From Ruminococcus sp. AF41-9 (GTDB lineage Bacteria; Bacillota; Clostridia; Lachnospirales; Lachnospiraceae): a stretch of DNA of 64,000 nt. The stretch lies in assembly GCF_003477525.1 (NCBI RefSeq), contig NZ_QUDO01000017.1, positions 1-64,000 on the forward strand, written 5' to 3'. The position numbers were made by a program, and so were the translations under genes. Shown in pieces: positions 20,150 to 37,814 of the stretch. The first letter of the stretch is position 1. Every line of letters starts with the position of its first letter. The notes beneath the pieces are model-generated. The model was given only the letters and a program-made list of their open reading frames with translations, had not been told where the DNA came from and did no database searches.

Positions 20150-20638
20150 ATGCCTAAAAACAAGTTTCAGGAAGTTATTTTTACGATTATTATGGTATTT
20201 GTGATGGTTTATGCCATGATCTGCTACAACATTGTGCTGAATACAGGAACAATGACAAATGAGACATTTCTGTTAGCGTTTCATGAATTAGTATTTATGG
20301 GACCAATCGCATTTGTTCTTGATTTCTTTCTCATCGGTGGTCTTGCAAAGAAGACTGCATTTGGGATTGTGGATGTGAGAAAAGATAATCCTTTCCATCT
20401 GGTACTGGCGATCTCAGCAGTATCCGTCGCATTTATGTGTCCGTGTATGAGCCTTGCAGCTACTCTGCTGATCAAACACGCAGCAGTAAGCCAGATCATC
20501 CCGACATGGCTTCAGACTACAGCAATGAACTTTCCGATGGCATTCTTCTGGCAGATCTTTTACGCTGGTCCGCTTGTAAGATTCATTTTTGGAAAACTTT
20601 TTCCGGAGAAGGAAAGAGCAGCAGCTTCTGCTGAATAA
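20150..20638 (+). CDS. DUF2798-like small membrane protein
   Basis: A 162-residue protein with four hydrophobic helices (about residues 8-28, 48-70, 80-108 and 120-148) separated by short loops. The pattern, including the CYNIVLNTGTM segment after helix 1 and FHELVFMGPIAF in helix 2, fits the DUF2798 family of bacterial membrane proteins, whose function is unknown. It is monocistronic: a consensus promoter lies upstream, AAGGAGG sits before the ATG and a terminator follows. No catalytic motif is visible, and I do not assign a role. Confidence 0.65.
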   Translation: MPKNKFQEVIFTIIMVFVMVYAMICYNIVLNTGTMTNETFLLAFHELVFMGPIAFVLDFFLIGGLAKKTAFGIVDVRKDNPFHLVLAISAVSVAFMCPCMSLAATLLIKHAAVSQIIPTWLQTTAMNFPMAFFWQIFYAGPLVRFIFGKLFPEKERAAASAE

Positions 20639-20749: not shown

Positions 20750-20778
20750 TTGACAAATAATGTCAATTCGTGTAATAT
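20750..20778 (+). promoter_or_regulatory. Promoter with overlapping operator for the sulfur cluster
   Basis: TTGACA (20750-20755), a 17-base spacer and TAATAT (20773-20778) make a strong promoter 120 bases before the sulfite reductase gene. The -35 box is the left arm of a perfect inverted repeat, TTGACA-AATAA-TGTCAA (20750-20766). A repressor bound there would block RNA polymerase, so the whole cluster may be sulfur- or cysteine-regulated. The regulator is not in the window. Confidence 0.7.
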
Positions 20779-20897: not shown

Positions 20898-21758
20898 ATG
20901 GCAGATTATGCAGCATTAAAAAAAGGCGGATTCATGCGCCAGAAACAGAAAAATAATTTTTCATTAAGAATCCGTGTAGTTGGCGGACATCTGGATGCGA
21001 AGCAGCTTGCGAAAGTAGCTGAGGTTTCAGAGAAATACGGCGAGGGCTATGTACATCTTACTTCCCGTCAGGGTGTGGAGATTCCCTTCATTAAATTAGA
21101 CCAGATCGATGAGGTGAAGGCAGCACTGGCAGAGGGAGATGTAGTTCCAGGTGTATGCGGACCGAGAGTCCGGACCATCACAGCCTGTCAGGGCGCAGCC
21201 ATCTGTCCGAGCGGATGTATTGATACTTACGCACTGGCAGAGGAGCTGGACGAGAGATACTTTGGACGTGAACTTCCACACAAATTTAAATTCGGTGTAA
21301 CCGGATGCCAGAATAACTGCCTGAAAGCAGAGGAAAATGATGTAGGAATCAAAGGCGGTATCAAGGTCGCATGGCAGGAAGATAAATGTATTCAGTGTGG
21401 TGTCTGTGTGAAAGCCTGTCGTGAAGGTGCAGTCACACTGGAAGATGGAAAGATCAGCATAGATTCTTCCAAATGTAACTTCTGTGGAAGATGCACCAAA
21501 GCCTGTCCAACAGATGCATATGAGAATACACACGGATACATCGTTTCTTTCGGAGGAATTTTCGGAAACCATATCAATAAAGGAAAAACAGTGATTCCGT
21601 TTATCGAGGATCATGAAAAACTCCTGAAAGTCTGCGATGCGGCGATCAGCTTTTTCGAGAAAAATGCAAAGGCCGGTGAGCGACTGAAATTTACGATCGA
21701 CCGTGTAGGCGAGGACGAATTTAATAAAGAAATCCTGGAGGCATATGAAAATGAGTGA
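20898..21758 (+). CDS. Siroheme sulfite reductase-like protein with two 4Fe-4S clusters
   Basis: A 286-residue cytoplasmic protein of the nitrite/sulfite reductase superfamily. A short ferredoxin-like half-domain leads (residues about 20-75; VHLTSRQGVEIPFI). The siroheme-[4Fe-4S] ligands follow as C-x5-C (CQGAAIC, about 98) and C-x3-C (GCQNNC, about 140). A bacterial ferredoxin insert carries CIQCGVCVKAC and CNFCGRCTKAC, which bind two more clusters. It would reduce sulfite to sulfide with six electrons. It is half the size of CysI and resembles the small single-gene enzymes of anaerobes. It heads the cluster and overlaps the TusA gene. The gene neighbours (AprAB, CysDN) favour sulfite over nitrite. 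Confidence 0.85.
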   Translation: MADYAALKKGGFMRQKQKNNFSLRIRVVGGHLDAKQLAKVAEVSEKYGEGYVHLTSRQGVEIPFIKLDQIDEVKAALAEGDVVPGVCGPRVRTITACQGAAICPSGCIDTYALAEELDERYFGRELPHKFKFGVTGCQNNCLKAEENDVGIKGGIKVAWQEDKCIQCGVCVKACREGAVTLEDGKISIDSSKCNFCGRCTKACPTDAYENTHGYIVSFGGIFGNHINKGKTVIPFIEDHEKLLKVCDAAISFFEKNAKAGERLKFTIDRVGEDEFNKEILEAYENE

Positions 21759-21996
21759 GATTAAATTTGATGATACCGTAGATATTACAGATGTTGTCTG
21801 CCCGGTAACTTTCGTAAAGGCAAAGGTAGCACTGGAAGAACTGGATGAGGGACAGATTTTATCCATCCGCATGAATGACGGCGAACCGGTTCAGAATGTA
21901 CCGCGCAGCATCAAAGAAGAAGGACATCAGATCCTGAAACTGGATGACAACGAAGATGGAACTTACACTCTTTATGTGAAGAAAGTCGGAGACTGA
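21751..21996 (+). CDS. TusA-family sulfur carrier
   Basis: An 81-residue TusA/SirA-fold protein. The active cysteine is Cys17 in DVVCPVTFVKAK, in the position of the family's CPxP motif. Such proteins hold sulfur as a persulfide and pass it on. I choose the ATG at 21751, 9 bases after GGAGG (21737-21741). The ATG at 21745 is only 3 bases from it. The start overlaps the end of the sulfite reductase gene (ATGAGTGA), suggesting translational coupling and that it handles sulfur produced by that enzyme. Confidence 0.85.
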   Translation: MSEIKFDDTVDITDVVCPVTFVKAKVALEELDEGQILSIRMNDGEPVQNVPRSIKEEGHQILKLDDNEDGTYTLYVKKVGD

Positions 21997-22071
21997 TAAA
22001 AGAAAACAGGGTTCGGGCGAACAAAAAAGAGCCTGAACGAGGAACGTGAAAAGACTGACAGGAGCAGGACC

Positions 22072-22389
22072 ATGGCAGAGAGATTAAACGAAGAGACTTT
22101 TAAAGAAAAAGCTTTTCAGGCAGGAAAACTTACACTGATCGATTTCTATTCCGACAGTTGTGTACCGTGTAAACGAATGGTTCCGGTATTTGCAAAGCTG
22201 GAAGAGAAATACGGCGATCAGATTTATATAGGAAAAGTAAATGTAGCTTACGAACAGAATCTGGTAGAAGAATACAAAGTCATGTCAGCACCGACGCTGA
22301 TCTTTCTGAAAGACGGAGAACAGATCGAGAGACTGACCGGAGCAAAGAAAGCAGTAGAGCTGGAAGAGATTATTGATAAGAATTTATAG
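22072..22389 (+). CDS. Thioredoxin-family protein
   Basis: A 105-residue single-domain thioredoxin. The active site is CVPC (residues about 31-34) within DFYSDSCVPCKRMVPVF, and the cis-proline lies in MSAPTLIF. The CVPC sequence differs from the usual CGPC. It sits 75 bases after the TusA gene and 21 bases before the ThiS-like gene. Inside this cluster it is a plausible electron donor for APS reduction or for reducing persulfides. The sequence does not show which. Confidence 0.88.
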   Translation: MAERLNEETFKEKAFQAGKLTLIDFYSDSCVPCKRMVPVFAKLEEKYGDQIYIGKVNVAYEQNLVEEYKVMSAPTLIFLKDGEQIERLTGAKKAVELEEIIDKNL

Positions 22390-22410
22390 AGATAAAGGAG
22401 AGCAAAAGTT

Positions 22411-22617
22411 ATGGTTATCACAGTAGCAGGAGATAAAAAAGAAGTAAAAGACGCAATCACAGTTTCAGAACTGATCGTACAGGAGGATGTGGAAACTCCT
22501 CAGTATGTGACAGTATCCGTAAACGATGACTTTATCGACAAGGCAGAATTTGACACCTACGCATTAAAAGAAGGCGACAGCGTTGAATTCCTGTACTTCA
22601 TGGGAGGTGGAAGATAG
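22411..22617 (+). CDS. ThiS-like sulfur carrier protein with extra C-terminal residue
   Basis: A 68-residue beta-grasp protein of the ThiS/MoaD class (VTVSVNDDFID, then EGDSVEFLYFMGGGR). Carriers of this class end in Gly-Gly, which is adenylated and turned into a thiocarboxylate. Here one arginine follows the glycines, so a peptidase must first remove it. A JAMM peptidase and an E1-like adenylating enzyme lie just downstream. This matches the HcyS carrier of Wolinella, whose last residue is also trimmed. No thiamine synthesis genes are present nearby, which argues against a ThiS role. Its stop (TAG) overlaps the GTG start of the next gene. Confidence 0.85.
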   Translation: MVITVAGDKKEVKDAITVSELIVQEDVETPQYVTVSVNDDFIDKAEFDTYALKEGDSVEFLYFMGGGR

Positions 22618-23423
22618 TGGCATTCACAAATGATCAGCTCGAACGTTATTCCAGACATATCATTCTGAAAGAAGTTGGGGCAAAAGGACAGAAAAAACTG
22701 CTTAATTCCAGCGTCCTGATCATCGGAGCAGGCGGTCTGGGAGCACCGGCAGCCCTTTATCTTGCGGCAGCAGGTGTGGGAACCATCGGAATTGCAGATG
22801 CAGATGAGGTAGACCTTTCCAATCTTCAGCGTCAGGTCATCCACGCAACCAAAGATATCGGGAAACCAAAGGTACTTTCCGCAAAAGAATCCATGGAAGC
22901 CATCAACCCGGATGTGACAGTAAAAACTTACCAGACTTTCGTAGATTCTGAAACGATCATGGACCTGATCAAAGATTACGATTTCATCATCGACGGAACC
23001 GATAACTTCCCGGCAAAATTCCTGATCAACGATGCCTGTGTTATGGCAAAGAAACCATTTTCACACGCAGGAATCCTTCGTTTCCAGGGACAGTTAATGA
23101 CTTATGTTCCGGGAGAAGGACCATGTTACAGATGTGTATTCAAAGATCCGCCGCCAAAAGATGCCGTACCAACCTGTAAGCAGGCCGGAGTCGTCGGAGC
23201 AATGGGCGGAGTGATCGGAAGTCTTCAGGCAATGGAAGCCATCAAATACCTTCTCGGTGTTGGTGATCTTCTTACCGGATACCTTCTTACCTATGATGCA
23301 CTTACCATGGAATTCCGTAAGATCAAACTTCCGAAACATGTAAAGAACTGCCCGGTATGCGGCGAGCATCCGACGATCACAGAACTGATCGACTACGAGC
23401 AGGCAGAATGTGACGGAATCTAG
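22617..23423 (+). CDS. ThiF/MoeB/HesA-type E1-like adenylyltransferase
   Basis: A 268-residue enzyme that would adenylate the C-terminal glycine of the ThiS-like carrier. The ATP-binding loop is IGAGGLGAPAALYLAAAG (about residues 37-54), followed by DLSNLQRQV and the DGTDNF motif (about 127-132). Zinc ligands are the pairs CYRC (about 175) and CPVC (about 244). The conserved catalytic-loop cysteine is in VPTCKQAGVVG. The GTG start overlaps the carrier's stop by one base behind GGGAGGTGG, so the two are co-translated. The stop codon TAG lies inside the left end of a 165-base palindrome. By context it corresponds to HcyF. Confidence 0.88.
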   Translation: MAFTNDQLERYSRHIILKEVGAKGQKKLLNSSVLIIGAGGLGAPAALYLAAAGVGTIGIADADEVDLSNLQRQVIHATKDIGKPKVLSAKESMEAINPDVTVKTYQTFVDSETIMDLIKDYDFIIDGTDNFPAKFLINDACVMAKKPFSHAGILRFQGQLMTYVPGEGPCYRCVFKDPPPKDAVPTCKQAGVVGAMGGVIGSLQAMEAIKYLLGVGDLLTGYLLTYDALTMEFRKIKLPKHVKNCPVCGEHPTITELIDYEQAECDGI

Positions 23424-23584
23424 TACATCGTTTTCGAAATAACTATACCACTCACTTGTCTGCGAATCCGATTGCACAGGTCTAAAAGCCTCAGCGTAGC
23501 CCGCTACGCCTGCGTTTTTAGACCTGCACACTCGAATCCGCATCCTACGCGATTGGTATAGTTATTTACGAAACGATGTACTAG
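23420..23584. repeat. 165-base long imperfect palindrome
   Basis: The two ends CTAGTACATCG and CGATGTACTAG are exact reverse complements, followed inward by AACTATACCA/TGGTATAGTT. The inner part pairs too (CAGGTCTAAAAG with TTTTTAGACCTG; AGCGTAGC with GCTACGC). The RNA would fold into one long hairpin. It has the shape of a small non-autonomous mobile palindrome and supplies the stop codon of the E1-like gene. The gap 23424-23730 holds this, a 39-base repeat (23638) and the ribosome site of the peptidase gene. Confidence 0.8.
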
Positions 23585-23637
23585 AAAACAACTGTTTCAG
23601 GGAGGATGCAAAGTATCTGCCTGATCACAAACACATT

Positions 23638-23676
23638 TTAACCAAATCAAGTAAGTCCCCTGCCTCAATTGCGAAG
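23638..23676. repeat. 39-base repeat, copy 1
   Basis: Begins TTTAACCAAATCAAGTAAGT and differs by one base from the copy at 30197-30235. Here the right arm that would close a hairpin is missing. Confidence 0.7.
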
Positions 23677-23730
23677 ATCCGCCGGACTATTTCGAATAAA
23701 GAAATGTGAATGTAAAGGAGCCAGAAAGTC

Positions 23731-24141
23731 ATGATCACAATGTCAAAAAATGACTATGAAATAATTTTAAAACACGCCAGAGAAAACCTTCCGGAAGAAG
23801 CCTGCGGACTGATCGCCGGAACAAAGGACGGAAACGATAAATCCATTCAGAAAGTTTACTGCCTGACAAACATCGACCATTCCAATGAACATTTTTCTCT
23901 CGATCCGAAAGAACAGCTCGCAGCAGTGAAAGATATGCGCGCCAACGGTCTGGTACCTCTTGGAAACTGGCATTCTCATCCGGAAAGCCCTTCCAGACCA
24001 TCCGAAGAAGACAAGAGACTGGCTTATGACAGCACAGCAAGCTATATGATCCTTTCTCTGATGGATAATGAGAATCCGGTTCTGAATTCTTTCCATATAG
24101 AAGGAACAGAATCTGAGAGGGAAGTACTGGTATTACTGTAA
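23731..24141 (+). CDS. JAMM/Mov34-family metallopeptidase
   Basis: A 136-residue zinc peptidase. The JAMM motif is complete: Glu in LPEEACGLIAG (about residue 23) and HSH followed after seven residues by S-x2-D (HSHPESPSRPSEED, about 79-92). Bacterial members of this size next to ThiS-like proteins cut the residue after the terminal Gly-Gly, as HcyD does. Here the arginine tail of the carrier at 22411 is the obvious substrate. AGGAG precedes the ATG. The sulfate-binding protein gene starts 17 bases later, tying it to the transport operon. Confidence 0.88.
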   Translation: MITMSKNDYEIILKHARENLPEEACGLIAGTKDGNDKSIQKVYCLTNIDHSNEHFSLDPKEQLAAVKDMRANGLVPLGNWHSHPESPSRPSEEDKRLAYDSTASYMILSLMDNENPVLNSFHIEGTESEREVLVLL

Positions 24142-24158
24142 AACTCAGGAGATGAAAC

Positions 24159-25157
24159 ATGATAAAAAAATTATTTGCATTTGGTCTGGCAGCCGTGCTG
24201 GCACTGACACCGGTGCAGGCATTTGGAAAGACAGTGTCTATCACAAACGTTTCCTATGACCCTACCAGAGAGATGTTTGAACAGTACAACAAAATATTCG
24301 AAGAACACTGGAAAGAACAGACCGGCGAGGATGTGGAAGTGATACAGTCTCACGGTGGCTCCGGCAAACAGGCACTTGAGGTAGCCAACGGACTGGATGC
24401 AGATGTAGTAACACTGGCACTGGAATACGATATTGAATCCATAGAAAATGCAGGGCTGATCAAAGCAGGATGGAAAGACAACTTTGACAATGACAGTTCT
24501 CCGTATACATCAACGATCGTATTTCTGGTGAAAAAAGGAAATCCAAAGGATATCAAAGACTGGGATGACCTGACCAGGGACGGAGTAGGAGTGGTGACAC
24601 CAAACCCGAAGACCTCCGGCGGAGCCAGATGGAACTACATGGCAGCATGGGCCTATGCAGATAAGAAATATGACGGCGATGAAACACAGATGAAAGATTT
24701 CATCAAAAAACTCTATCAGAATGTAGTAGTTCTGGACTCCGGTGCAAGAGGTGCAACCACTTCTTTTGTAGAAAACGGACAGGGCGATGTGCTGGTAGCG
24801 TGGGAAAATGAAGCGTATCTTTCCATGCGTGACTACCCGGATGAGTACGAGATCGTTACCCCTAGTGTCAGCATTCTGGCACAGCCATCCGTAGCAGTGG
24901 TGGATGAGGTAGTGGATTACAGAGGAACAAGAGATGTGGCAACTGAGTATCTGAATTATCTGTATTCCGATGAAGCGCAGGAGATTGAAGCAGAGAACTA
25001 TTTCCGGCCGACAAATGAGAAAATCCTGAATGAGTACAGCGATGTATTTGACCTGAATGTAGATCTGGTAAACATCAGCGAATACGGCGGATGGGATGAA
25101 GTGCAGGAGAAACATTTCACGGACGGCGGAATCTTTGATGAGATTTACGAGAGATAA
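24159..25157 (+). CDS. sbp: Sulfate ABC transporter substrate-binding protein
   Basis: A 332-residue exported binding protein of the Sbp/CysP family. A signal peptide (residues 1-23) ends QAFGK, and the mature chain opens with the family hallmark ITNVSYDPTREM. Sulfate-contacting motifs QSHGGSGKQA (about 62) and NPKTSGGARWNYMAAW (about 147) are intact. The mature start has no lipobox cysteine, so this protein would not be lipid-anchored, unlike most Gram-positive binding proteins. It lies just after the JAMM peptidase and before cysTWA. Thiosulfate as a second ligand is possible. Confidence 0.9.
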   Translation: MIKKLFAFGLAAVLALTPVQAFGKTVSITNVSYDPTREMFEQYNKIFEEHWKEQTGEDVEVIQSHGGSGKQALEVANGLDADVVTLALEYDIESIENAGLIKAGWKDNFDNDSSPYTSTIVFLVKKGNPKDIKDWDDLTRDGVGVVTPNPKTSGGARWNYMAAWAYADKKYDGDETQMKDFIKKLYQNVVVLDSGARGATTSFVENGQGDVLVAWENEAYLSMRDYPDEYEIVTPSVSILAQPSVAVVDEVVDYRGTRDVATEYLNYLYSDEAQEIEAENYFRPTNEKILNEYSDVFDLNVDLVNISEYGGWDEVQEKHFTDGGIFDEIYER

Positions 25158-25244
25158 GAAACAGGATACAGAATAATCCGGAATATGAAAACTACGAAGA
25201 CAACGTGACCAGAGCATACGAGACGAGAGAGGTGGTAATTGATT

Positions 25245-26080
25245 ATGAAAAAAAGAAATAAACCAGTGATTCCAGGATTCGGACTCTCCATGGGAATTAC
25301 CATTTCCATACTAAGTCTGGTGGTTCTGATCCCGCTTGCCAGTCTGGTAATCTACACTGTAAAGCTCAGTTTTAAAGATTTCATTGAAACCATCACAAGA
25401 GCCAGAGTGCTGGCATCCTTTTACACCAGTTTTATCTCTGCTTTTGCAGCGGCAGTGATAAACGGTATCATGGGAACCATTCTTGCATGGGTGCTTGTGA
25501 AATATGAATTTCCAGGCAGACGGATCATGGACGGAATGATCGAACTTCCTTTCGCACTTCCAACCGCAGTTGCCGGTATTGCACTGACATCCTTAACTTC
25601 TGATTCCGGTATCGTAGGCAGCTTTTTTGCAGATTTGGTATCAGGATCGCATACACAAGAATTGGCATCACAGTTGCTATGATCTTCGTAGGAATCCCAT
25701 TCGTTGTACGAAGCGTACAGCCGGTTCTGGAAAAAATGGACAATTCCTACAGTGAGGCAGCTGGAGTGTTGGGTGCCAGGAAATCCACAATCTTCCGGAA
25801 AGTTATTTTTCCGGAATTAAGACCTGCGATCTTCGCAGGAACCGGACTTGCATTCGGCAGATGCCTGGGCGAATACGGAAGCATCGTATTTATCGCAGGA
25901 AACAAACCATATTATACAGAAATCACGCCGCTGATCATTATGTCAGAGCTTCAGGAATTTGATTATTCCAGTGCAACGGCGATCGCGCTGGTAATGCTGG
26001 CAGTTTCATTTTTCATTCTGTTTCTCAACAGCATGATCCAGCAGAGAAACGCAAGAATCTTAAGAGGAGGAAATGCCTGA
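25245..26080 (+). pseudogene. cysT: Sulfate ABC transporter permease CysT, one-base frameshift
   Basis: Two frames (25245-25682 and about 25630-26080) combine to a 278-residue CysT/CysU permease. One T is missing from the run near 25634: restoring it gives ADFGIRIAYTRIGITVAMIF. The parts show the MetI-type fold with about six helices, the LPFALPTAVAGIALT segment and the ATPase-coupling EAA loop (YSEAAGVLGARKSTIFRKVIFPEL). Start at ATG 25245, 10 bases after GAGAGGTGG. The stop overlaps the cysW ATG (TGATGG). The downstream genes are intact, so a sequencing error is quite possible. Confidence 0.85.
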
Positions 26081-26904
26081 TGGACAACAAAGGAAAGACT
26101 TCAGAGAAAATCACAAAATGGCTTCTGATCGGAATCGGTGTTCTGTTCCTGACAGTGATGCTCATCCTCCCGCTGGTCACAGTGATTACAGAAGCATTGC
26201 GAAGCGGATGGAAAGTTTACGTCGCTGCGGTGACAGACGAGTACACCATCAAAGCACTTCTCCTCACTGTGAAGGCAACACTTTTCGCAGTGATCTTTAA
26301 TACCATCTTCGGTATCTTCGCAGCCTGGGCACTGACCAAGTTTCAGTTTAAGGGCAAAAAACTGCTGACCACACTGATCGACCTTCCGGTTACGATCTCA
26401 CCGGTCATTGCAGGTCTGATCTTTCTCCTGATTTTCGGACGACAGAGTCCGGTCTACTTTTTCCTTTTGAAATTTGGAATTAAAGTTGTATTCTCTGTAC
26501 CGGGAATCATTATTGCAACCGTGTTTGTAACTTTTCCTTTTATTTCCAGAGAGCTGATTCCGGTTCTGGAAGCAGAAGGAACAGATGAGGAAGAAGCGGC
26601 GGCCCTGATGGGAGCCGGCGGGTGGACGATTTTCTGGAAGATCACTTTTCCTCATATTAAATGGGCATTGCTTTACGGCATCGTCCTCTGTACGGCGAGA
26701 GCGATGGGAGAGTTCGGTGCAGTGTCCGTCCTTTCCGGACATTTAAGAGGAAAGACAAATACCCTTCCTCTCCATGTGGAGATTTTATTTAACGAGTTTC
26801 AGTATGTTCCGGCATTTGCCGTATCTTCATTGCTGGTGATCATGGCAGTTATCATCCTGGTGGTCCGAAGCGTGATCGAATACAAAGGAAAGAAGGAAGC
26901 CTGA
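26080..26904 (+). CDS. cysW: Sulfate ABC transporter permease CysW
   Basis: A 274-residue inner-membrane permease with about six helices, the partner of CysT. Visible marks are LPVTISPVIAGLIFLLIFG (about residues 100-118), the EAA coupling loop EEEAAALMGAGGWTIFWKITFP (about 168-190) and the conserved ARAMGEFGAVSVLSG. The start codon overlaps the cysT stop. The cysA start follows after one base. Length is usual for CysW (270-290). Confidence 0.92.
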   Translation: MDNKGKTSEKITKWLLIGIGVLFLTVMLILPLVTVITEALRSGWKVYVAAVTDEYTIKALLLTVKATLFAVIFNTIFGIFAAWALTKFQFKGKKLLTTLIDLPVTISPVIAGLIFLLIFGRQSPVYFFLLKFGIKVVFSVPGIIIATVFVTFPFISRELIPVLEAEGTDEEEAAALMGAGGWTIFWKITFPHIKWALLYGIVLCTARAMGEFGAVSVLSGHLRGKTNTLPLHVEILFNEFQYVPAFAVSSLLVIMAVIILVVRSVIEYKGKKEA

Positions 26905-26905
26905 T

Positions 26906-27964
26906 ATGTATGTAGAGTTAAAAAATATAAATAAGACCTATGGTTCCTACCAGGCATCAAAGAATGTGAATTTCGGAATCGAAAAAGGCAAGCTGATCGG
27001 CCTGCTGGGACCAAGCGGAAGCGGAAAAACAACCATTCTTCGAATGATCGCAGGTCTGGAAACACCGGACAGCGGCGAGATCATCATTGACGGAAAAGTA
27101 GTCAACGATGTTCCGGCAAGTGAACGTGGCATTGGTTTTGTATTTCAGAATTATGCATTGTTCCGTTACATGACCGTTTACGATAACGTAGCATTCGGCC
27201 TGAAAGTTCAGAAGGTAGACAAGAAAACCATTGACAGCAGAGTCAGAGAACTGGTAAAGCTGGTAGGTCTGGAAGGACTGGAAAAAAGATATCCAAGCCA
27301 GTTATCCGGCGGTCAGAGACAGAGGGTAGCATTTGCCAGAGCCCTTGCGCCAAACCCGCAGGTACTTTTGCTGGATGAGCCGTTTGCAGCGATTGATGCA
27401 AAGATCCGACAGGAACTGCGAAGCTGGTTAAAAGAGATGATTGAGAAGCTGGGAATTACCAGTATCTTTGTTACACATGATCAGGATGAGGCCATCGAGG
27501 TGGCAGATGAGATCATCATCACCAACGCAGGACGGATTGAGCAGAAAGGAACACCTGTAGAAGTTTACCGAAATCCGGAGACAGCTTTTACCGCATCCTT
27601 CTTCGGACAGCCGTCTGTACTGAAGAATGCAGATGATTTCCACACATTTACGCAGGCAGAAGGAGCAGACAAAATCATTGTCCGCCCGGAATTTGTAAAA
27701 GTTTCCAAACTGGATGAGGTTGAGAAGTTCAGAACTTCCGTTTCCCAGGGAGTGGTTGAACGGGTTTCTTTCAGAGGCGATAACCTGGAACTTCAGGTAA
27801 GAGTCAACAACTCCGTGGTAAACGCCAGAAGAAGCCTTGAGAAAGCAGATGTCCGCGAGGGCGAAATCGTGAATGTATTCCTTTACAGGATTTTTGCCCT
27901 GAGAGGTGACAGCGTACAACTGATTGAGAATGAGGCTGTAAGAGATGACTTCGTGATCATTTAA
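26906..27964 (+). CDS. cysA: Sulfate ABC transporter ATP-binding protein CysA
   Basis: A 352-residue ATPase that powers sulfate import. Walker A is GPSGSGKTT (about residues 34-42), the Q-loop lies in FVFQNYALF, the signature is LSGGQRQRVAFARAL (about 132), Walker B is VLLLDEPFAAID (about 152) and the switch histidine is in IFVTHDQDEA. The C-terminal third is a TOBE-like regulatory region (IIVRPEFVKV; LYRIFALRG). Length matches the CysA family. It ends the transport part of the cluster. A hairpin repeat and a 151-base gap separate it from aprA. Confidence 0.93.
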   Translation: MYVELKNINKTYGSYQASKNVNFGIEKGKLIGLLGPSGSGKTTILRMIAGLETPDSGEIIIDGKVVNDVPASERGIGFVFQNYALFRYMTVYDNVAFGLKVQKVDKKTIDSRVRELVKLVGLEGLEKRYPSQLSGGQRQRVAFARALAPNPQVLLLDEPFAAIDAKIRQELRSWLKEMIEKLGITSIFVTHDQDEAIEVADEIIITNAGRIEQKGTPVEVYRNPETAFTASFFGQPSVLKNADDFHTFTQAEGADKIIVRPEFVKVSKLDEVEKFRTSVSQGVVERVSFRGDNLELQVRVNNSVVNARRSLEKADVREGEIVNVFLYRIFALRGDSVQLIENEAVRDDFVII

Positions 27965-27970
27965 CCGAAT

Positions 27971-28003
27971 CAGGCAGTGAAGCGGATGTTTTTATCCGTC
28001 TGA
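27971..28003. repeat. Short hairpin repeat (GAAGCGGAT family), diverged copy
   Basis: AGCGGAT pairs with ATCCGTC around a TGTTTTT-type loop. It is a shorter relative of the copies at 30318, 30365, 33055, 50981 and 56541. Confidence 0.55.
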
Positions 28004-28115
28004 ATCTTTAACCAGAATTTTACCCAACGTTAATCCAACGGAATCGGATTGATGATAAAATGAATTGATAATACAATCAGGAATAAACAGGATACATACT
28101 TCCGGAGGAAAGAGT

Positions 28116-29873
28116 ATGAGAGCAGAGAGAATCAAGACCGACGTACTAATCATCGGCGGTGGTACAGCAGGATGCTTTGCAGCTTACGTGATCGGGCAGA
28201 AAAGCGATAAGAAAGTTCTGATCGCAGAGAAAGCAAATATTAAGCGAAGTGGATGTCTGGCAGCAGGTGTCAACGCGTTGAACGCATATATCACAGAGGG
28301 CAGAGTGCCGCAGGATTATGTAGACTATGCCAAAAAGGATGCCCATGGAATCGTAAGGGAAGATCTTCTTCTGACCATGTCAGAGAGACTGAATCATGTG
28401 ACAAAAGTAATGGAAGATCTGGGGCTGGTCATCCTGAAAGATGAAAACGGCAAATATGTTGCCAGAGGAAACCGAAATATCAAGATTAACGGTGAGAATA
28501 TGAAACCAATCCTGGCAAAGGCAGCAGCCGGACAGGAAAACGTTACCGTTCTCAATCATGTAAATATCACAGATTATAAAACGGAAAACGGAAAGATCAC
28601 CGGAGCCGTAGGATTCAGCGTGAATGAAGAAATCTTCTATGATATTGACGCAGAAGCAGTCCTTTGTGCGACAGGCGGTGCGGCAGGACTTTACAGACCG
28701 AACAATCCGGGATTTTCCAGACATAAAATGTGGTATCCGCCATTTAACACAGGCGCAGGATATGCAATGGGACTTCTTTCCGGAGCAGAGATGACGACTT
28801 TCGAGATGCGCTTCATTGCACTGAGATGTAAAGACACCATCGCTCCTACAGGAACCATTGCCCAGGGCGTAGGTGCCAGACAGGTGAATGCACACGGTGA
28901 TATTTATGAAACCAAATATGGACTGACAACTTCTCAGCGGGTTTACGGTACCGTCATGGAGAACAGAGAAGGAAACGGTCCATGTTACCTCAGGACTGAA
29001 GGCATTTCCAAAGAACAGGAACAGGATCTTTACAAAGCTTACCTGAACATGGCACCGTCCCAGACGCTGAAATGGATGGAAGCAGGCAAGGGGCCTTCTG
29101 AAGAAAATGTAGAGATCGAGGGTACCGAGCCATACATCGTGGGCGGTCACACAGCCAGCGGTTACTGGGTGGATAATAACAGAGCTACAACCATCGAAGG
29201 CTTATATGCAGCCGGAGATGTAGCCGGAGGATGCCCGCAGAAATATGTAACCGGCGCACTGGCAGAAGGTGAGATCGCAGCAGAGGCGATCCTGAAATAT
29301 CTGAACGGAAAAGCAGAATCAGAAGGAACAAAGCTTTTGGAAGTTTCGGAAAATCAGGAATTATCTGGTAACGCAGCGGATAAGAAAGCAGAGTATGAAT
29401 CTCACTTAAATGCCACCCGTTCCCTGATGAACGCAGAGCAGCTTGAGGAAGCCATGCAGAAGATCATGGACCAGTACGCAGGCGGAATCGGCACAGACTA
29501 CAGATACAGCGAGACAGGTCTTGCAAAAGCAGACGAAAAGATTGCGGCACTTCTCCCGGTAGTGGATACTCTGGCAGCAGCCGATACCTACGAACTGATG
29601 CAGATTTACGAACTTCGTGAACGACTGATCGTATGCCGTGCAGTTATCGCACATCTGGCGGCCAGAAAAGAAACCAGATGGCATAGTTTTGGAGAGAATA
29701 CCGATTATCCGGAACAGAGCGAAGATTGGATGAAATATGTGAACTCCCGCATGGAAAACGGTGAGATTAAGATTCTGTACCGTGACTTAGTCACAAAAGA
29801 GACCGCTGATAAACAGACAGCAGGTTCAAAACCATCACAAAATACAGCAGAGAAAGGAGCAGGTGAAAGATGA
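28116..29873 (+). CDS. aprA: Adenylylsulfate (APS) reductase, alpha subunit
   Basis: A 585-residue flavoprotein of the fumarate reductase/AprA family that reduces APS to sulfite and AMP. The FAD-binding start is DVLIIGGGTAGCFAAYVIGQ, followed by the AprA-typical RSGCLAAGVNALNAYI (about residues 46-61). Further family segments are GARQVNAHGD, AGDVAGGCPQKYVTGALAEGEIAA (about 370) and a helical C-terminal domain. I choose the ATG at 28116, 7 bases after GGAGG. The longer frame from 28065 has no ribosome site. It overlaps aprB by four bases. Enzymes of sulfate-respiring bacteria come with Qmo or Dsr genes. None is here, so an assimilatory use is inferred. Confidence 0.9.
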   Translation: MRAERIKTDVLIIGGGTAGCFAAYVIGQKSDKKVLIAEKANIKRSGCLAAGVNALNAYITEGRVPQDYVDYAKKDAHGIVREDLLLTMSERLNHVTKVMEDLGLVILKDENGKYVARGNRNIKINGENMKPILAKAAAGQENVTVLNHVNITDYKTENGKITGAVGFSVNEEIFYDIDAEAVLCATGGAAGLYRPNNPGFSRHKMWYPPFNTGAGYAMGLLSGAEMTTFEMRFIALRCKDTIAPTGTIAQGVGARQVNAHGDIYETKYGLTTSQRVYGTVMENREGNGPCYLRTEGISKEQEQDLYKAYLNMAPSQTLKWMEAGKGPSEENVEIEGTEPYIVGGHTASGYWVDNNRATTIEGLYAAGDVAGGCPQKYVTGALAEGEIAAEAILKYLNGKAESEGTKLLEVSENQELSGNAADKKAEYESHLNATRSLMNAEQLEEAMQKIMDQYAGGIGTDYRYSETGLAKADEKIAALLPVVDTLAAADTYELMQIYELRERLIVCRAVIAHLAARKETRWHSFGENTDYPEQSEDWMKYVNSRMENGEIKILYRDLVTKETADKQTAGSKPSQNTAEKGAGER

Positions 29874-30184
29874 GCATTCGGATTCAGAAAAGTAAATGTG
29901 TAGGATGCGGCAGATGCATCGAAGCCTGTCCCGGAAACCTGATCAAAAAGGACAAAGAAGGCAAAGCCTTTATCCGTCAGGTCAGAGACTGCTGGGGATG
30001 CACTTCCTGTATCAAAGAATGCAGCCGTGATGCCATCCGCTTCTTCCTTGGAGCTGATGTGGGAGGCAGAGGTACAAGCATGGTTGTATCAGAGAAACCT
30101 GATATTTCCACCTGGACAGTGGAGAAGCCGGACGGCACAAAGATTACCATTCAGGTTAATAAGAAAGATGCGAACAAATATTAA
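29870..30184 (+). CDS. aprB: APS reductase, beta (ferredoxin-like) subunit
   Basis: A 104-residue ferredoxin with two [4Fe-4S] motifs: CVGCGRCIEACPGN (about residues 10-23) and CWGCTSCIKECSRDAI (about 41-56), the latter with AprB-type spacing. A short C-terminal extension (TWTVEKPDGTKITIQVN) would wrap around AprA, as the longer tail of classical AprB (about 150 residues) does. The ATG overlaps the aprA stop (ATGA). It would pass electrons to the FAD of AprA. Confidence 0.9.
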   Translation: MSIRIQKSKCVGCGRCIEACPGNLIKKDKEGKAFIRQVRDCWGCTSCIKECSRDAIRFFLGADVGGRGTSMVVSEKPDISTWTVEKPDGTKITIQVNKKDANKY

Positions 30185-30196
30185 CGCGATCAATAT

Positions 30197-30268
30197 TTAA
30201 CCAAATCAAGTAAGTCCCCTGCTTCAATTGCGAAAAGCAATAAGCAGTGGGTGGGGACTTGCTTGTAT
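30197..30268. repeat. 39-base repeat, copy 2, extended to a full hairpin
   Basis: 30197-30235 nearly equals the copy at 23638. Here CAAGTAAGTCCCC and GGGGACTTGCTTG close a long stem (about 30206-30268). It may terminate or stabilise the aprAB message. The gap 30185-30506 also holds two GAAGCGGAT hairpins and the cysD ribosome site. No gene is seen. Confidence 0.65.
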
Positions 30269-30317
30269 CAGGAAGAGTGCAAGCTCTTTCTGATAAACTG
30301 CGGAGCAGTTATTTGGT

Positions 30318-30357
30318 TATGAGCAAGTAGCGAAGCGGATTGCGAATATCCGCTTGA
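30318..30357. repeat. Short hairpin repeat (GAAGCGGAT family)
   Basis: The copy reads TATGAGCAAGTAGCGAAGCG at its left. AAGCGGAT pairs with ATCCGCTT around TGCGAAT. It is nearly identical to 50981-51022. Confidence 0.75.
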
Positions 30358-30364
30358 CCCAAAT

Positions 30365-30402
30365 CAAGCAAGTAGCAAAGCGGATGATTTTATCCGCCTG
30401 AC
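30365..30402. repeat. Short hairpin repeat (GAAGCGGAT family), second tandem copy
   Basis: CAAGCAAGTAGCAAAGCGGA followed by a TGATTTT loop and ATCCGCCTGAC. It lies 7 bases from the previous copy. Confidence 0.65.
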
Positions 30403-30506
30403 AAAAATGTTTTCGGTGAGAAAAGCATGAAATGTTCTGGCAGTCAGATAACAGAGCAGACTGCCGGACTTTACGATAAATCAAACAAACAGAGGAGGAT
30501 AATGCA

Positions 30507-31406
30507 ATGAGTAACTTATCTCATCTTGATGAGCTTGAAGCAGAAGCAATTTATATTATGCGAGAAGTAGCAGCCGAGTGTGAAAAGCCGGTTATGCTCT
30601 ATTCTATAGGAAAGGACAGCTCCGTTATGCTCCATCTGGCGCTGAAAGCATTCTATCCGGAGAAACCGCCGTTCCCGTTCCTGCACATTGACACAACCTG
30701 GAAATTCCGTGAAATGATCGAATTTCGTGACAGAATTGCCAAAGAAAACGGCATCGACATGCTGGTTTATACCAACGAAGAAGGTGTAAAAGCAGGAATC
30801 AACCCGTTTGACAACGGCTCCGCATACACCGACATCATGAAAACCCAGGCATTAAAACAGGCTCTTACCAAATATGGATTTACTGCAGCATTCGGCGGCG
30901 GCCGTCGTGATGAAGAGAAATCCAGAGCAAAAGAAAGAATCTTCTCTTTCCGTAATGCAGCCCAGGCATGGGACCCGAAAAATCAGAGACCAGAGATGTG
31001 GAAACTCTACAACACCAAGATCCAGAAAGGGGAAAGCATGCGAGTTTTCCCGATCTCCAACTGGACAGAGAAAGATATCTGGCAGTACATTCGGCGTGAA
31101 AACATCGAAATCGTGCCATTATATTTTGCAAAAGAAAGACCGGTCATCTACAGAGATGGCAACATTATCATGGTAGACGATGACAGATTAAAACTTCGCC
31201 CGGATGAAAAAATCGAGTACAAAAAAGTCAGATTCCGTACCCTTGGATGCTATCCGCTTACAGGCGGCATCGAATCTGAAGCAGATACATTAGACGAGAT
31301 CATTGACGAGACATTAAGTGCTGTTTCCTCCGAACGTACCAGCCGTGTGATCGACCACGAGGCAGCAGGCAGCATGGAGAGAAGAAAGAGAGAGGGGTAT
31401 TTCTAG
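30507..31406 (+). CDS. cysD: Sulfate adenylyltransferase subunit 2 (CysD)
   Basis: A 299-residue catalytic subunit of ATP sulfurylase, which makes APS from sulfate and ATP. It has the PP-loop [20 protein letters not shown] (about residues 33-52), the segment [15 protein letters not shown], the basic [15 protein letters not shown] loop (about 130-145) and [17 protein letters not shown]. Its length matches CysD (about 300). A strong AGAGGAGG site lies upstream, and cysN begins two bases after the stop. Without a CysH/CysC pair in the cluster, the product APS would go to AprAB. Confidence 0.95.
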
Positions 31407-31407
31407 G

Positions 31408-33048
31408 ATGAAAGGATTATTGAAATTTATTACATGCGGAAGTGTGGATGATGGAAAATCCACTCTGATCGGACATATTCTTTATGATGCAAAGCTTCTC
31501 TATGCAGATCAGGAGAAAGCTCTGGAGCTGGATTCCAAAGTGGGAAGCAGAGGCGGTGCCATTGACTATTCCCTTCTTCTGGACGGTCTGATGGCAGAAC
31601 GTGAACAGGGTATCACTATTGACGTTGCATACCGTTATTTTACAACAGACAACCGCAGCTTTATCGTAGCTGACACCCCGGGCCATGAAGAATATACCAG
31701 AAACATGGCAGTCGGTGCATCTTTTGCAGATCTGGCAGTTATCCTTGTGGATGCTTCTCAGGGCGTACTGGTACAGACAAGACGCCATGCAAGAATCTGC
31801 GCGCTGATGGGAATCCGCTACTTCGTATTTGCAGTAAACAAAATGGACCTGATCGGATATGATGAAAAACGTTTCTGCGAGATTGAAAACCAGATCGCAG
31901 GTCTGATCGAAGAACTGAAGCTTGCCAATGTGACGATCATTCCGGTATCTGCCACAGAGGGAGATAACGTTACAACCAAATCCGACAACATGCCATGGTA
32001 TGCAGGCGAAGCACTCCTCACACATCTGGAAACCGTAGACATCAAAGAAGACACAGAAAAAGGTTTCTATATGCCTGTACAGAGAGTCTGCCGTCCAAAT
32101 CACGAATTTCGTGGATTCCAGGGCCAGATTGAGAACGGTTCCATTAAAGTGGGCGACTTTGTGACAACTCTTCCAAGCAAAGAAGAAGCACATGTAAAGA
32201 GTATTCTGGTTGGCGACAAAGAAGCAGAAGAAGCTGTACAGGGACAGCCTGTAACCATTCAGCTTGACAGAGAAGTAGACGTTTCCCGCGGATGCGTTCT
32301 TACTGTTGATTCCGGTGCAGTTCTCACAGATTCCGTAGAAGCGGACATCCTCTGGATGGATGACAACGCCCTCACAGACGGCAAAAACTTCTTTGTAAAA
32401 ATCGGTACCAAGATGATCCCTGGTCTGGTTACAAAGATCAACTACTCCGTAGATGTAAATACAGGTGAAAAGAAAAACGCCTATACTTTAAATAAGAATG
32501 AGATCGCATCCTGCACTCTGGAATTTTCAGAGAAGATTGTAGTTGATGAATTTGAAAAACACAGAACTCTGGGTGAACTGATTCTGATCGACCGTGTCAC
32601 AAATATGACATCCGCCTGCGGTGTTGTAAGAAAAACTCTGGTTTCTCAGGATAAATCCCAGATCGGCAAAGTGAATGAACAGGTTCGTGCAGGTCTGAAA
32701 GGCCAGACACCGGTAGTCGTAGAATTTCCAATCGGCAAAGAAGGAATCACTCTCGACTTCGCAGAACAGGTAGAAAAAGGATTAACAGTTCTTGGAAGAC
32801 ATACCTACCTCTATCACCCGGCAGCAAGCGAAAACTACGCAGAAACTGTCCGCCACCTCAAAGCAGCCGGACTGATCGTACTTCTTGTCCTTGATGAAAG
32901 CACAGCCAAAGACGAAACACTCAAAGGACTGGAAGGTTTCTACGCAAACTGGCAGCCGGATGGACTTACTGTGAAAGATGCTGTGGATTTCGTGAAGAAA
33001 AAATCTGCATTTGCGGTACAGAATGCAGAGGATGGAAATTATATTTAA
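31408..33048 (+). CDS. cysN: Sulfate adenylyltransferase subunit 1 (CysN) with degenerate APS-kinase-like tail
   Basis: A 546-residue GTPase that drives APS synthesis by CysD. EF-Tu-like motifs are GSVDDGKSTLIGHI (G1, about residues 11-24), DTPGHEEYTRNM (G3, about 89-100) and NKMD (G4, about 148). Two beta-barrel domains follow to about residue 425. Plain CysN is about 470 residues. Here a further stretch (about 430-530) reads VVVEFPIGKEGITLDFAEQV, GRHTYLYHPA and AGLIVLLVLDE. That echoes the fold and order of an APS kinase (CysC), but the GxxGxGKS P-loop is lost. I infer a fused, inactive kinase domain. The rest of the enzyme looks complete. Confidence 0.9.
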   Translation: MKGLLKFITCGSVDDGKSTLIGHILYDAKLLYADQEKALELDSKVGSRGGAIDYSLLLDGLMAEREQGITIDVAYRYFTTDNRSFIVADTPGHEEYTRNMAVGASFADLAVILVDASQGVLVQTRRHARICALMGIRYFVFAVNKMDLIGYDEKRFCEIENQIAGLIEELKLANVTIIPVSATEGDNVTTKSDNMPWYAGEALLTHLETVDIKEDTEKGFYMPVQRVCRPNHEFRGFQGQIENGSIKVGDFVTTLPSKEEAHVKSILVGDKEAEEAVQGQPVTIQLDREVDVSRGCVLTVDSGAVLTDSVEADILWMDDNALTDGKNFFVKIGTKMIPGLVTKINYSVDVNTGEKKNAYTLNKNEIASCTLEFSEKIVVDEFEKHRTLGELILIDRVTNMTSACGVVRKTLVSQDKSQIGKVNEQVRAGLKGQTPVVVEFPIGKEGITLDFAEQVEKGLTVLGRHTYLYHPAASENYAETVRHLKAAGLIVLLVLDESTAKDETLKGLEGFYANWQPDGLTVKDAVDFVKKKSAFAVQNAEDGNYI

Positions 33049-33054
33049 CAAAAT

Positions 33055-33093
33055 CAGGTAAGTGGTGAAGCGGATTGCGAATATCCGCCTGAC
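33055..33093. repeat. Short hairpin repeat (GAAGCGGAT family)
   Basis: GAAGCGGATTGCGAATATCC with the CGCCTGAC end, directly behind the cysN stop, where it could act as the 3' end structure of the cluster mRNA. Confidence 0.7.
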
Positions 33094-35765: not shown

Positions 35766-36635
35766 TTACCATGTCAACAGAAGCTGATCATCAATTTTTT
35801 TGTTTTTCATGGATTTTCCACTATTTTGTAATCGATCCACCATAGATATACCGCAATCAACGAAAAGCTGTCTTTCAAATAATCCTTCTGGCGGAACTGC
35901 TGCTATATCGGTTTTTCCAGAGTCTTTTTTTCCATTGATGCTAAGCATAACCTTTACCCCTCTGGCTTTACATTCCGCAATTTTTTTCCATAAAACTTCA
36001 ACATCAAAAGATTGAGCACCATATAGAATACTTTGTGAATGAGTATAAGGAGGGTCGCAGTATATAACATCATTTTTTTGTGCTCTATTCATAGCCTCGG
36101 TATAATTCATACAATCAAAATCAGCCTTTTGAATTAAGGTATGCCATTGTAAAAGCCGTTTTTCGAATACTTCGGGTGAAATAGGATTATGAGGTCCTCT
36201 TGGTGTACTCATATATCCATCGGTCTTTCTGAAACGTATTACCCCACCATAACATGTGCGGGAAAGAACTAGAAAATCAAAGGGATTATGTTCGTTATTA
36301 AATTTATTTTTTATTAAATTATATTGTAAATCGGGATCTTTTTTATACTTTTCAATTTCTTCTCTATAGTAAGATGATAAAGCAATAGGATTATTTTTGG
36401 CTAGATTAAAAATATCAATCAGGAATGGAAGCACGTCTGATCCATAGGCATGCTTAAATTTTGGAAACAATTTATTTGCATCAGAATCCAATAATGCGGC
36501 CATTACAGCACCACTTCCCAGAAATGGTTCATAATAGTTGTTAAATTCTTGAGGCATATAACTAATAATTGTATCTGCAAAACGCTGTTTATTTCCTATC
36601 CACTTTAATAGTGCTGGTATGCGAATAGTTATCAC
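35766..36635 (-). CDS. Type II DNA adenine methyltransferase (D12 class)
   Basis: A 289-residue N6-adenine methyltransferase of the Dam/DpnM (MethyltransfD12) class. The opening LLKWIGNKQRF corresponds to the AdoMet-site motif X. FLGSGAVM (about residue 40) is motif I. CDPPY (about 193) is catalytic motif IV. The middle VIRFRKTDGYMSTP is the target-recognition region. It would protect host DNA against the restriction enzyme encoded on the other side of the divergent control region. The GC content of this island is clearly below that of its neighbours, suggesting horizontal gain. The recognition sequence cannot be deduced. Confidence 0.9.
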   Translation of the reverse strand: MITIRIPALLKWIGNKQRFADTIISYMPQEFNNYYEPFLGSGAVMAALLDSDANKLFPKFKHAYGSDVLPFLIDIFNLAKNNPIALSSYYREEIEKYKKDPDLQYNLIKNKFNNEHNPFDFLVLSRTCYGGVIRFRKTDGYMSTPRGPHNPISPEVFEKRLLQWHTLIQKADFDCMNYTEAMNRAQKNDVIYCDPPYTHSQSILYGAQSFDVEVLWKKIAECKARGVKVMLSINGKKDSGKTDIAAVPPEGLFERQLFVDCGISMVDRLQNSGKSMKNKKIDDQLLLTW

Positions 36636-36646
36636 TCCATTCTGTA

Positions 36647-36688
36647 ACTTATAGTCTGTAGACGTATAGTCTACGGTTTTATTATAAT
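36647..36688. promoter_or_regulatory. C-box operator and promoter of the restriction-modification operon
   Basis: 36647-36676 holds two related half-sites, ACTTATAGTC and GTATAGTCTACGG, around TGTAGAC. This is the arrangement of controller-protein operators. A TATAAT box follows at 36683-36688. The divergent methyltransferase start lies 12 bases to the left. The small XRE protein encoded just right is the expected ligand, giving delayed endonuclease expression. Confidence 0.7.
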
Positions 36689-36713
36689 TATAAAAAGAGG
36701 AGGTGTCAATCCA

Positions 36714-36950
36714 ATGGAAAGTGAAATTCGGATTAAATTTGGCAGAACACTTCGGAGACTAAGGAAAAATCAAGGTGTTTCGCAAGAAGCTTTCGCAGAT
36801 AAATGTGATTTGCACAGAACATATGTCAGTGATGTAGAACGAGGTGAACGAAATATATCATTGGAAAATATCGAAAAAATAGCGAAAGTTTTGAATGTGA
36901 AGATAAGTGAATTGTTTAGAGAGGTGGAGAACGAAAGTGATAGCATTTAA
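36714..36950 (+). CDS. XRE-family controller (C) protein of a restriction-modification system
   Basis: A 78-residue helix-turn-helix protein, nearly all HTH_3 domain: FGRTLRRLRKNQGVSQEAFADKC, then THRTYVSDVERGERNIS-like recognition (LHRTYVSDVERGERNIS) and ISLENIEKIAKVLNVKISELF. Controller proteins bind C-boxes in their own promoter and set the timing of endonuclease synthesis. The C-box-like element lies 40 bases upstream, and the endonuclease gene starts inside this gene's end. AGGAGG precedes the ATG. Confidence 0.88.
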   Translation: MESEIRIKFGRTLRRLRKNQGVSQEAFADKCDLHRTYVSDVERGERNISLENIEKIAKVLNVKISELFREVENESDSI

Positions 36951-37779
36951 AGAGTTCCATAATATGCCAGAGAATTTTTGGGCTTTTGTAAAATATGTAT
37001 CAGAAAATTTAGGATATGCGAAACGTGGTGTTGGGGTTAAAACTTATTCAGCAGATGAAATCGAAAAGCTTTGTAGAAAAAATGAGGTATATGCGGATTC
37101 AAAAACAATACAGGCTGTAGCAAATTATTCAGCGATGAGAGCTGATTTGTTAAATAATTTTGTGGAAAGCAGGTTAATGACTGCTGAACAGGCAAAAGAA
37201 AAATTTGTATATTGGGAACAATTACATAGAACTCATTCATATCAATGTAAATTGCCATTAAATAAACAAAAAGGCGAGATGCGTCAGGTTGCGTTTTTTA
37301 CTGCTATTATAAATATTTTGGCAGAAAAAACTATACGTGAAGAATTACATACAGATGATTTAGGCTTCAATGATGATCCACGAAGTTTAATGTATGTAAC
37401 AGATGAAAATGAACAAATTATAGGAGCGAGTTCTCGACGATTTGATGGCGCATTTCCTTCTATAAAAAATCCGTCCATTGTATGGGAAATCAAAGAATAT
37501 TATTATGCAACAACATTTGGATCAAGAGTAGCAGATGGCGTATATGAGACTCAGCTTGATGGTTTTGAATTCAAAGAGATATTTGAAAGAACGGGTCATA
37601 AAATATATCATGTATTGTTTATTGATGCATATCGTACCTGGTGGGAACAGGGAAAGAGTTATTTATGCAGGTTAGTGGATGCACTGAATTCTGGGGTGGT
37701 AGATGAAGTGATTGTTGGAGAAGAAGTGTTTGATAGGTGGCCTGAATTGTTGCGAGATGTGATTCATAATAAAATATAG
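36937..37779 (+). CDS. Type II restriction endonuclease (probable)
   Basis: A 280-residue protein translated from GTG at 36937, 9 bases after GAGGTGG and overlapping the controller gene by 14 bases. The position between controller gene and methyltransferase makes an endonuclease the natural call. A candidate PD-(D/E)XK core lies at RRFDGAFP followed by IVWEIKEYYYATTFGSR (about residues 175-210), giving D...ExK. The rest has no motif I can name. Low GC matches the methyltransferase. It should cut the unmethylated form of the same site. Confidence 0.75.
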   Translation: MIAFKEFHNMPENFWAFVKYVSENLGYAKRGVGVKTYSADEIEKLCRKNEVYADSKTIQAVANYSAMRADLLNNFVESRLMTAEQAKEKFVYWEQLHRTHSYQCKLPLNKQKGEMRQVAFFTAIINILAEKTIREELHTDDLGFNDDPRSLMYVTDENEQIIGASSRRFDGAFPSIKNPSIVWEIKEYYYATTFGSRVADGVYETQLDGFEFKEIFERTGHKIYHVLFIDAYRTWWEQGKSYLCRLVDALNSGVVDEVIVGEEVFDRWPELLRDVIHNKI

Positions 37780-37814
37780 TATATGATGAAAGATGAGCCT
37801 AGAGGGAGAAGTGA

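Follow-up and report, generated by a model that had tools for sequence, protein, structure and literature searches.

A probable sulfate assimilation cluster in Ruminococcus sp. AF41-9 with AprAB of the PAPS-reductase clade, a predicted carrier-based sulfur relay and a putative APS-kinase remnant on CysN

RESULTS

Gene content of the sulfate cluster.

We analyzed a stretch of 64,000 nucleotides from Ruminococcus sp. AF41-9 (contig NZ_QUDO01000017.1, positions 1 to 64,000; the whole stretch is referred to as the window), which carries a cluster of putative sulfate assimilation genes around aprAB, predicted to encode a reductase of adenylylsulfate (APS) or its 3′-phosphorylated form (PAPS). Genome-wide statements rest on relatives and not on the window's own genome. 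Among these relatives is G002, which belongs to the same genus, comprises a single contig and is the closest complete genome to carry the cluster. Open reading frames (ORFs) and domain searches recovered all genes named in a preliminary description of this DNA, in one direction and in the order given there.

20750..20778, + strand: candidate sigma-A-like promoter (TTGACA, 17-base spacer, TAATAT), read in the sequence upstream of the cluster
20898..21758, + strand: small siroheme sulfite reductase (SiR) of 286 amino acids (aa) with an inserted 2x[4Fe-4S] ferredoxin domain (NIR_SIR plus Fer4)
21745..21996, + strand: TusA-like sulfurtransferase (PF01206)
22072..22389, + strand: thioredoxin (Trx) with the motif CVPC (PF00085)
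22411..22617, + strand: ThiS-like sulfur carrier of 68 aa with the C terminus GGGR (PF02597/TIGR01683)
22617..23423, + strand: E1-like adenylating enzyme of 268 aa without a rhodanese domain (PF00899, the ThiF domain, alone)
23731..24141, + strand: JAMM/JAB peptidase of 136 aa with an intact HxHx7SxxD motif (PF14464)
24159..25157, + strand: sulfate-binding protein Sbp (solute-binding family PF13531; sulfate specificity assigned from context)
25239..26080, + strand: cysT permease gene, split into ORFs 25239-25682 and 25679-26080 (ORFs and comparison with G002)
26080..26904, + strand: CysW permease (98% identical to a G002 ORF; named from context)
26906..27964, + strand: CysA ATPase (PF00005 plus TOBE_2)
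28116..29873, + strand: AprA of the PAPS-reductase clade with the motif N-R-N (ORF opens at 28065; NF005331, 927.7 bits)
29870..30184, + strand: AprB, 2x[4Fe-4S] ferredoxin-like (TIGR02060, 47.6 bits, below the cut-off of 135.65)
30507..31406, + strand: CysD, small subunit of ATP sulfurylase (TIGR02039)
31408..33048, + strand: CysN, GTPase subunit of ATP sulfurylase (TIGR02034)
32638..33045, + strand: decayed APS-kinase domain without a P-loop, residues 411-546 of CysN (fold and profile homology to CysC)

Since the block recurs in G002 at 92 to 99% protein identity and, rearranged, across Clostridia, its arrangement is not due to chance; the window segments flanking the cluster on either side align to the G002 stretch as well. 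The best PDB relatives of SiR were F420-dependent sulfite reductases, and among the 35 matched Trx proteins of the surveyed loci the motif read CVPC in 22 and CIPC in 11. CysN exceeds plain CysN in length, with 136 residues (411-546) beyond the core. The cysT gene is a single ORF in G002 (90% identical DNA), and the split in the window stems from one missing base, which could reflect either an error in sequencing or true damage to sulfate uptake.

A putative carrier relay linked to MetY.

To place the cluster among relatives, a set of named loci was made up of the best 80 of 423 confirmed relatives, which biases it toward close relatives; co-occurrence was counted in the 42 loci with at least 9 kb on either side of aprA, leaving out 38 with less than 9 kb on one side. 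Presence of the relay was nearly all-or-none: carrier, E1 and JAMM occurred as a complete trio in 20 loci, none of the three was present in another 20, and the remaining two had E1 without the full trio, one of them together with SiR and TusA. All 20 trio loci contained TusA, SiR and a MetY-type enzyme, and MetY is therefore regarded as part of the module. At least one residue followed GG(G) in 57 of 58 matched carriers (counting the window and two duplicate genomes), and the JAMM motif was kept in 59/59 loci. The GG-extended carrier, the rhodanese-free E1 and the JAMM motif bear out the proposed resemblance to the HcyS/HcyF/HcyD route, with its tie to sulfate reduction; the relay is of this already known kind, not a new one. 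Three loci (L076, L078, and L079, from G006, G005, and G017) additionally encode a second carrier with a C-terminal extension (ending QFMGGGSC), located ∼9 to 11 kb upstream of aprA.

According to the preliminary description, CysH, CysC, CysK and MetY were missing and the acceptor of the thiocarboxylate sulfur was unknown and possibly new. As for the first statement, no tblastn match (E ≤ 1e-3) to MetY, a second O-acetylhomoserine (OAH) sulfhydrylase, CysK or APS kinase was found within the 64 kb; the query for CysH covered G002 and not the window, and PF01507 matched CysD alone there. A search of the G002 genome thus returned neither cysH nor APS kinase, but both cysK and metY are present there. 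The second statement was not borne out, and a new acceptor was rejected once MetY had been found. In G002 metY is absent from the cluster and lies elsewhere on the chromosome (1.12 Mb versus 3.36 Mb). Its product nests in the clade of in-cluster MetY proteins, sharing 69% identity with the one from the G028 cluster, and the other OAH sulfhydrylase of G002 groups apart from that clade. Of 66 rows, 43 entered this tree, with in-cluster MetY sampled at every second entry; PF01053 rows were represented by the longest + strand frame, which was longer than 380 aa for 15 of the 30 loci. By this placement, metY has moved out of the cluster in G002, and we infer from G002 that the window's own genome carries it as well. 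The metY region of G002 (L073:7374-13214) has transposase genes of the DDE and IS605-OrfB types downstream, as well as a RAGATH-18 RNA.

On a long branch, the MetY of Wolinella succinogenes (3RI6) was positioned beside the in-cluster clade with support 81, apart from ordinary OAH sulfhydrylases. Moreover, a homoserine acyltransferase was detected in 16 of 19 genomes of the window's AprA subclade (defined below), G002 included. Because MetY belongs to the module, the G002 metY falls into the in-cluster clade and relatives encode the acyltransferase, the acceptor is most likely O-acetylhomoserine.

In mycobacteria, CysO-CysM uses a carrier thiocarboxylate to make cysteine. A CysK/CysM-like enzyme might similarly direct the thiocarboxylate to cysteine here, with acetyl- or phosphoserine as acceptor, and 7 of the 20 trio loci as well as G002 do have cysK. 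We consider this unlikely: cysK is also present in 6 of the 20 trio-free loci and therefore does not track the relay, MetY accompanies the trio in every case, and for the related Wolinella MetY, a thiocarboxylate borne on a protein is the reported substrate (PMC6271081).

AprA belongs to the clade of a PAPS reductase.

The best PDB match of the window's AprA was MtPAPSR from Methanothermococcus thermolithotrophicus (8a8o, 616.5 bits), compared to 308 bits for dissimilatory APS reductase. The authors of the MtPAPSR structure assigned its PAPS traits to Lys120, Arg121, and Ser122 (PMC10322725). In the corresponding columns the window has N-R-N, MtPAPSR K-R-S and Archaeoglobus fulgidus Q-W-Q; the complete Lys-Arg-Ser motif is thus not present in the window, which shares Arg alone and has this residue in place of the Trp of the dissimilatory type.

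In a tree of 74 sequences (out of 155 rows), sequences with Trp (W-type) formed one side of a branch (100/100) and all sequences with Arg (R-type) a clade (100/100). Within the latter, window-type R-N sequences fell into a subclade of their own (100/97), with nine K-R-S-like sequences (89/65) as neighbors, and the 32 sequences of both groups were united with support 100/100. Sampling left aside nine AprA places that scored above 460 bits in one search and, below that score, took in a single region carrying two dissimilatory copies; G001, the nearest genome by shared words (83% complete), had no AprA of the cluster's kind. AprA of the cluster hence seems to descend from PAPS-type enzymes. The preliminary description had correctly noted AprAB; its label "dissimilatory-type" is better replaced, given the PDB match and the tree, by assimilatory AprAB of the PAPS-reductase clade.

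Probable loss of APS kinase in the window's lineage.

Using a threshold of E ≤ 1e-10, APS kinase was detected genome-wide in all 28 tested genomes of the other R-type sequences and in 6 of 22 W-type genomes. For the window subclade, the counts were 1/19 in one set and 7/46 in a second (drawn from 46 of the 80 named loci), equivalent to 8/63 as two genomes, with identical AprA, were common to both; in 55/63, among them G002, none was detected. In the fetched stretches around aprA, 22 of the 31 remaining R-type loci had an intact APS-kinase ORF, compared with 0 of 100 subclade stretches and 0 of 22 W-type loci. The window and four same-genome pairs are counted among the 100, and the stretches of the subclade were longer by median (20.0 versus 15.7 kb). 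These results suggested that the lineage of the window has lost APS kinase. A strict rule by which Ser or Asn at the third motif position would predict presence or absence of the kinase was discarded, as it is broken by locus L269. G036, the single APS-kinase-positive genome among the 19, encodes a second CysD-like protein next to an APS-kinase domain in a 615-aa, CysN-CysC-like frame (G036:C145:64200-66794).

The C-terminal tail of CysN shares both fold and profile homology with APS kinase (CysC). No P-loop (GxxGxGKS/T) was found in the window tail or in any of the 31 tails of this fossil type, and the window tail also lacks a segment aligned to RHGLNKDLGF. CysN therefore seems to retain a degenerate kinase domain for which the pathway no longer has a need. 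The idea that all CysN tails of the subclade are kinase fossils was rejected, since 63 of the 94 subclade loci whose CysN is long (59/90 after removal of duplicate genomes) have another domain at this position. Compared with CysC, this alternative tail reached only 0.2 to 0.25% in hhalign. It measures ∼155 aa (L172:14167-14628 and 39 aligned relatives), is predicted to be mostly beta (pLDDT 89.9), and yielded neither a Pfam match over cut-off nor a PDB fold match (best Foldseek match, E 0.59). A hidden Markov model that mixed both tail types gave no usable match to CysC.

AprAB might still reduce PAPS, provided by an unrecognized kinase or by the CysN tail. This would agree with the clade shared with MtPAPSR, the retained Arg and the eight subclade genomes with APS kinase, but would have to accommodate the 55 genomes without a detected kinase, the tail devoid of P-loop and RHGLNKDLGF segment, and the lack of any intact kinase ORF in the 100 subclade stretches. 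We therefore regard it as quite improbable.

Electron disposal and cofactor synthesis as alternatives.

As was suggested for Roseburia (PMC7478625), AprAB and SiR might dispose of electrons on sulfate, an idea favored by the likeness of AprAB to the dissimilatory enzyme. DsrB, however, remained below the cut-off in all 19 subclade genomes examined (both sulfate-reducer-like controls exceeded it), which led us to reject a dissimilatory role. In addition, MetY and the carrier belong to the module, activation of sulfate costs ATP, and a similarly composed aprA cluster of Clostridium acetobutylicum is listed as CymR regulated (PMC4845359, Table 3); an electron sink is thus very unlikely. A function of carrier, E1 and JAMM in the synthesis of thiamine or another cofactor, which the preliminary description had named as a competing possibility, is hardly credible and for thiamine was rejected: the carrier does pass the ThiS model TIGR01683 (67.4 bits; cut-off, 37.45), but G002 has a separate ThiS beside ThiF and ThiG that ends exactly in GGG, as do five other ThiS proteins, and thus offers no C-terminal extension to trim.

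Surroundings of the cluster.

The −35 and −10 elements of the candidate promoter and their spacing are likewise present upstream of SiR in G002. A palindromic operator considered at 20750 was dismissed, as it is imperfect in G002 and was matched in 27 of 100 shuffles at the tested stringency. No riboswitch was found near the cluster at Rfam gathering scores. Two stretches of the window have no counterpart in G002, one separating E1 from JAMM (about 23423-23707), the other AprB from CysD (about 30187-30402). The former (23419-23707) bears, right at the E1 stop codon, an imperfect palindrome with 35-nt arms (23419-23453 and 23551-23585; 89% complementary), and thus resembles a miniature inverted-repeat transposable element. 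The latter is an intergenic repeat with pieces at 23637-23675, 33060-33093, 50981-51022, and 56545-56578 and matching pieces in loci of several relatives. Upstream, 20150-20638 encodes a small membrane-type protein with a subthreshold DUF2798 match (20.8 of 23.5 bits), which also adjoins the cluster in G002. Downstream, 35766-38822 comprises genes for a D12-class adenine methylase, a helix-turn-helix protein and a DUF7687/DUF7690 protein as well as an ORF without a Pfam match, a makeup reminiscent of a restriction-modification or mobile island.

DISCUSSION

Proposed pathway.

Our analysis makes it likely that the cluster specifies an assimilatory route from sulfate to homocysteine, with an APS-reducing AprAB, a thiocarboxylate carrier, MetY encoded elsewhere, a lost APS kinase and a dead kinase as the tail of CysN. 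At the level of sequence, this builds on the gene content, the linkage of the module, the relocation of MetY in G002, the clade structure, the loss of the kinase in relatives and the fold of the fossil; all reactions, the switch of substrate and the roles of TusA and Trx we infer from the protein families. Sulfate would be imported by Sbp-CysTWA and converted to APS by CysDN. AprAB would then reduce APS (not PAPS) to sulfite, and the small siroheme enzyme sulfite to sulfide. JAMM would trim the C-terminal Arg of the carrier to expose GG, E1 would adenylate the carrier, and sulfur would then yield the thiocarboxylate. This sulfur is probably delivered by TusA, with Trx as a reductant; handover by TusA is suggested by its presence in 20/20 trio loci, and Iyer et al. 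supposed the same for SirA. Via MetY, the thiocarboxylate sulfur would reach O-acetylhomoserine, and homocysteine would finally be freed by JAMM.

Several observations weigh against this reading. In eight of the 63 subclade genomes, APS kinase is still encoded outside the cluster, and L269 (G260) has the motif KRN and yet adjoins a kinase gene. At the second motif position Arg persists, which has been suggested to matter for PAPS in MtPAPSR. Loss of the kinase is essentially a single event in the tree, so that the kinase counts, and with them the correlation between residue and kinase, are not independent; a test on independent pairs had too few pairs for significance (sign test, median p 0.5). 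Most long CysN proteins of the subclade carry the other domain instead of the fossil. Finally, the presence of metY in the window's genome is deduced from G002 only, the Wolinella MetY sits on a long branch, and the MetY tree contains two evidently wrong rows (L054 and L057; branch lengths near 10).

With confidence only a little above even, we favor a clostridial reversal in which a PAPS-reducing AprAB returned to APS and APS kinase was lost, with the dead kinase domain being kept on CysN, possibly for regulation, and swapped in most sister lineages for an unrelated domain without a recognized fold. The result would be a bacterial parallel, arisen by convergence, to fungal ATP sulfurylase and its dead kinase domain, and would feed a thiocarboxylate route to homocysteine. 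The main novelty is the AprA clade together with the kinase fossil, both outside the preliminary description; within the portions of the literature that were searched, no paper was found that describes an inactive APS kinase attached to CysN or the disappearance of this kinase next to AprAB.

For gut Lachnospiraceae with this cluster, the view would change from possible sulfate respirers to sulfate assimilators that build the sulfur of methionine on a carrier protein. As aprA is in use as a marker gene for the sulfur cycle (PMC5099947), a three-way split of AprA by sequence could be of use, with a W-type presumed to act on APS, an R..S type presumed to act on PAPS and accompanied by the kinase, and a mostly kinase-less R..N type. 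The dead kinase on CysN would be a lasting trace of the change.

Comparison with known systems.

The chemistry of the HcyS/HcyF/HcyD/MetY route to methionine in W. succinogenes was reportedly worked out by Krishnamoorthy and Begley in 2011. This Wolinella work is cited in PMC5764234 and PMC6271081. The window shares with it a carrier with one or more residues after GG, E1, JAMM and genes of sulfate reduction and, judging from G002, probably a MetY partner, but differs by the addition of AprAB, TusA, and Trx, by a metY unlinked in its lineage and by a clostridial host. Operons of this class had been predicted by Iyer, Burroughs and Aravind in 2006 (PMC1779556, Table 1, row 4e), listed for Wolinella, Clostridium thermocellum and others, with the proposal that sulfur derived from sulfate or sulfite passes to the carrier. 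Common to class 4e and the window are the ThiS/MoaD-like protein, JAB, the rhodanese-free E1, SirA/TusA, sulfate transport, ATP sulfurylase and sulfite reductase and, judging from relatives of the window, OAH sulfhydrylase; in contrast, the entry lists PAPS reductase and adenylylsulfate kinase and mentions neither AprAB nor a dead kinase.

MtPAPSR (PMC10322725), the nearest solved structure, resembles the window's AprA in clade and in the assimilatory use proposed for the latter, and differs in having KRS instead of NRN; its partner kinase is lost in most of the window's subclade. The genes CA_C0102-0110 of C. acetobutylicum (PMC4845359) combine AprA, ferredoxin, a sulfate ABC transporter, CysD, CysN and OAH sulfhydrylase. 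There, however, an adenylylsulfate kinase is listed and the passage in question does not name carrier, E1 and JAMM; the likeness is drawn from the gene descriptions. Roseburia genomes with cysND-aprAB have been reported in PMC7478625, which left open the fate of the sulfite formed by aprAB. In the R. faecis locus L166, MetY, SiR, TusA, Trx, carrier, E1, and JAMM directly follow CysN; since this locus holds the whole module, the relay suggests a likely answer for Roseburia. Lastly, in the ATP sulfurylase of fungi and yeast the C-terminal domain is described as resembling APS kinase, with a function that is regulatory or undefined but not that of a kinase (PMC3779200), as would apply to the CysN tail. 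In those organisms the domain is borne by a homo-oligomeric ATP sulfurylase, whereas in the window and its relatives, whose genomes are mostly without a detectable APS kinase, it resides on the GTPase subunit CysN.

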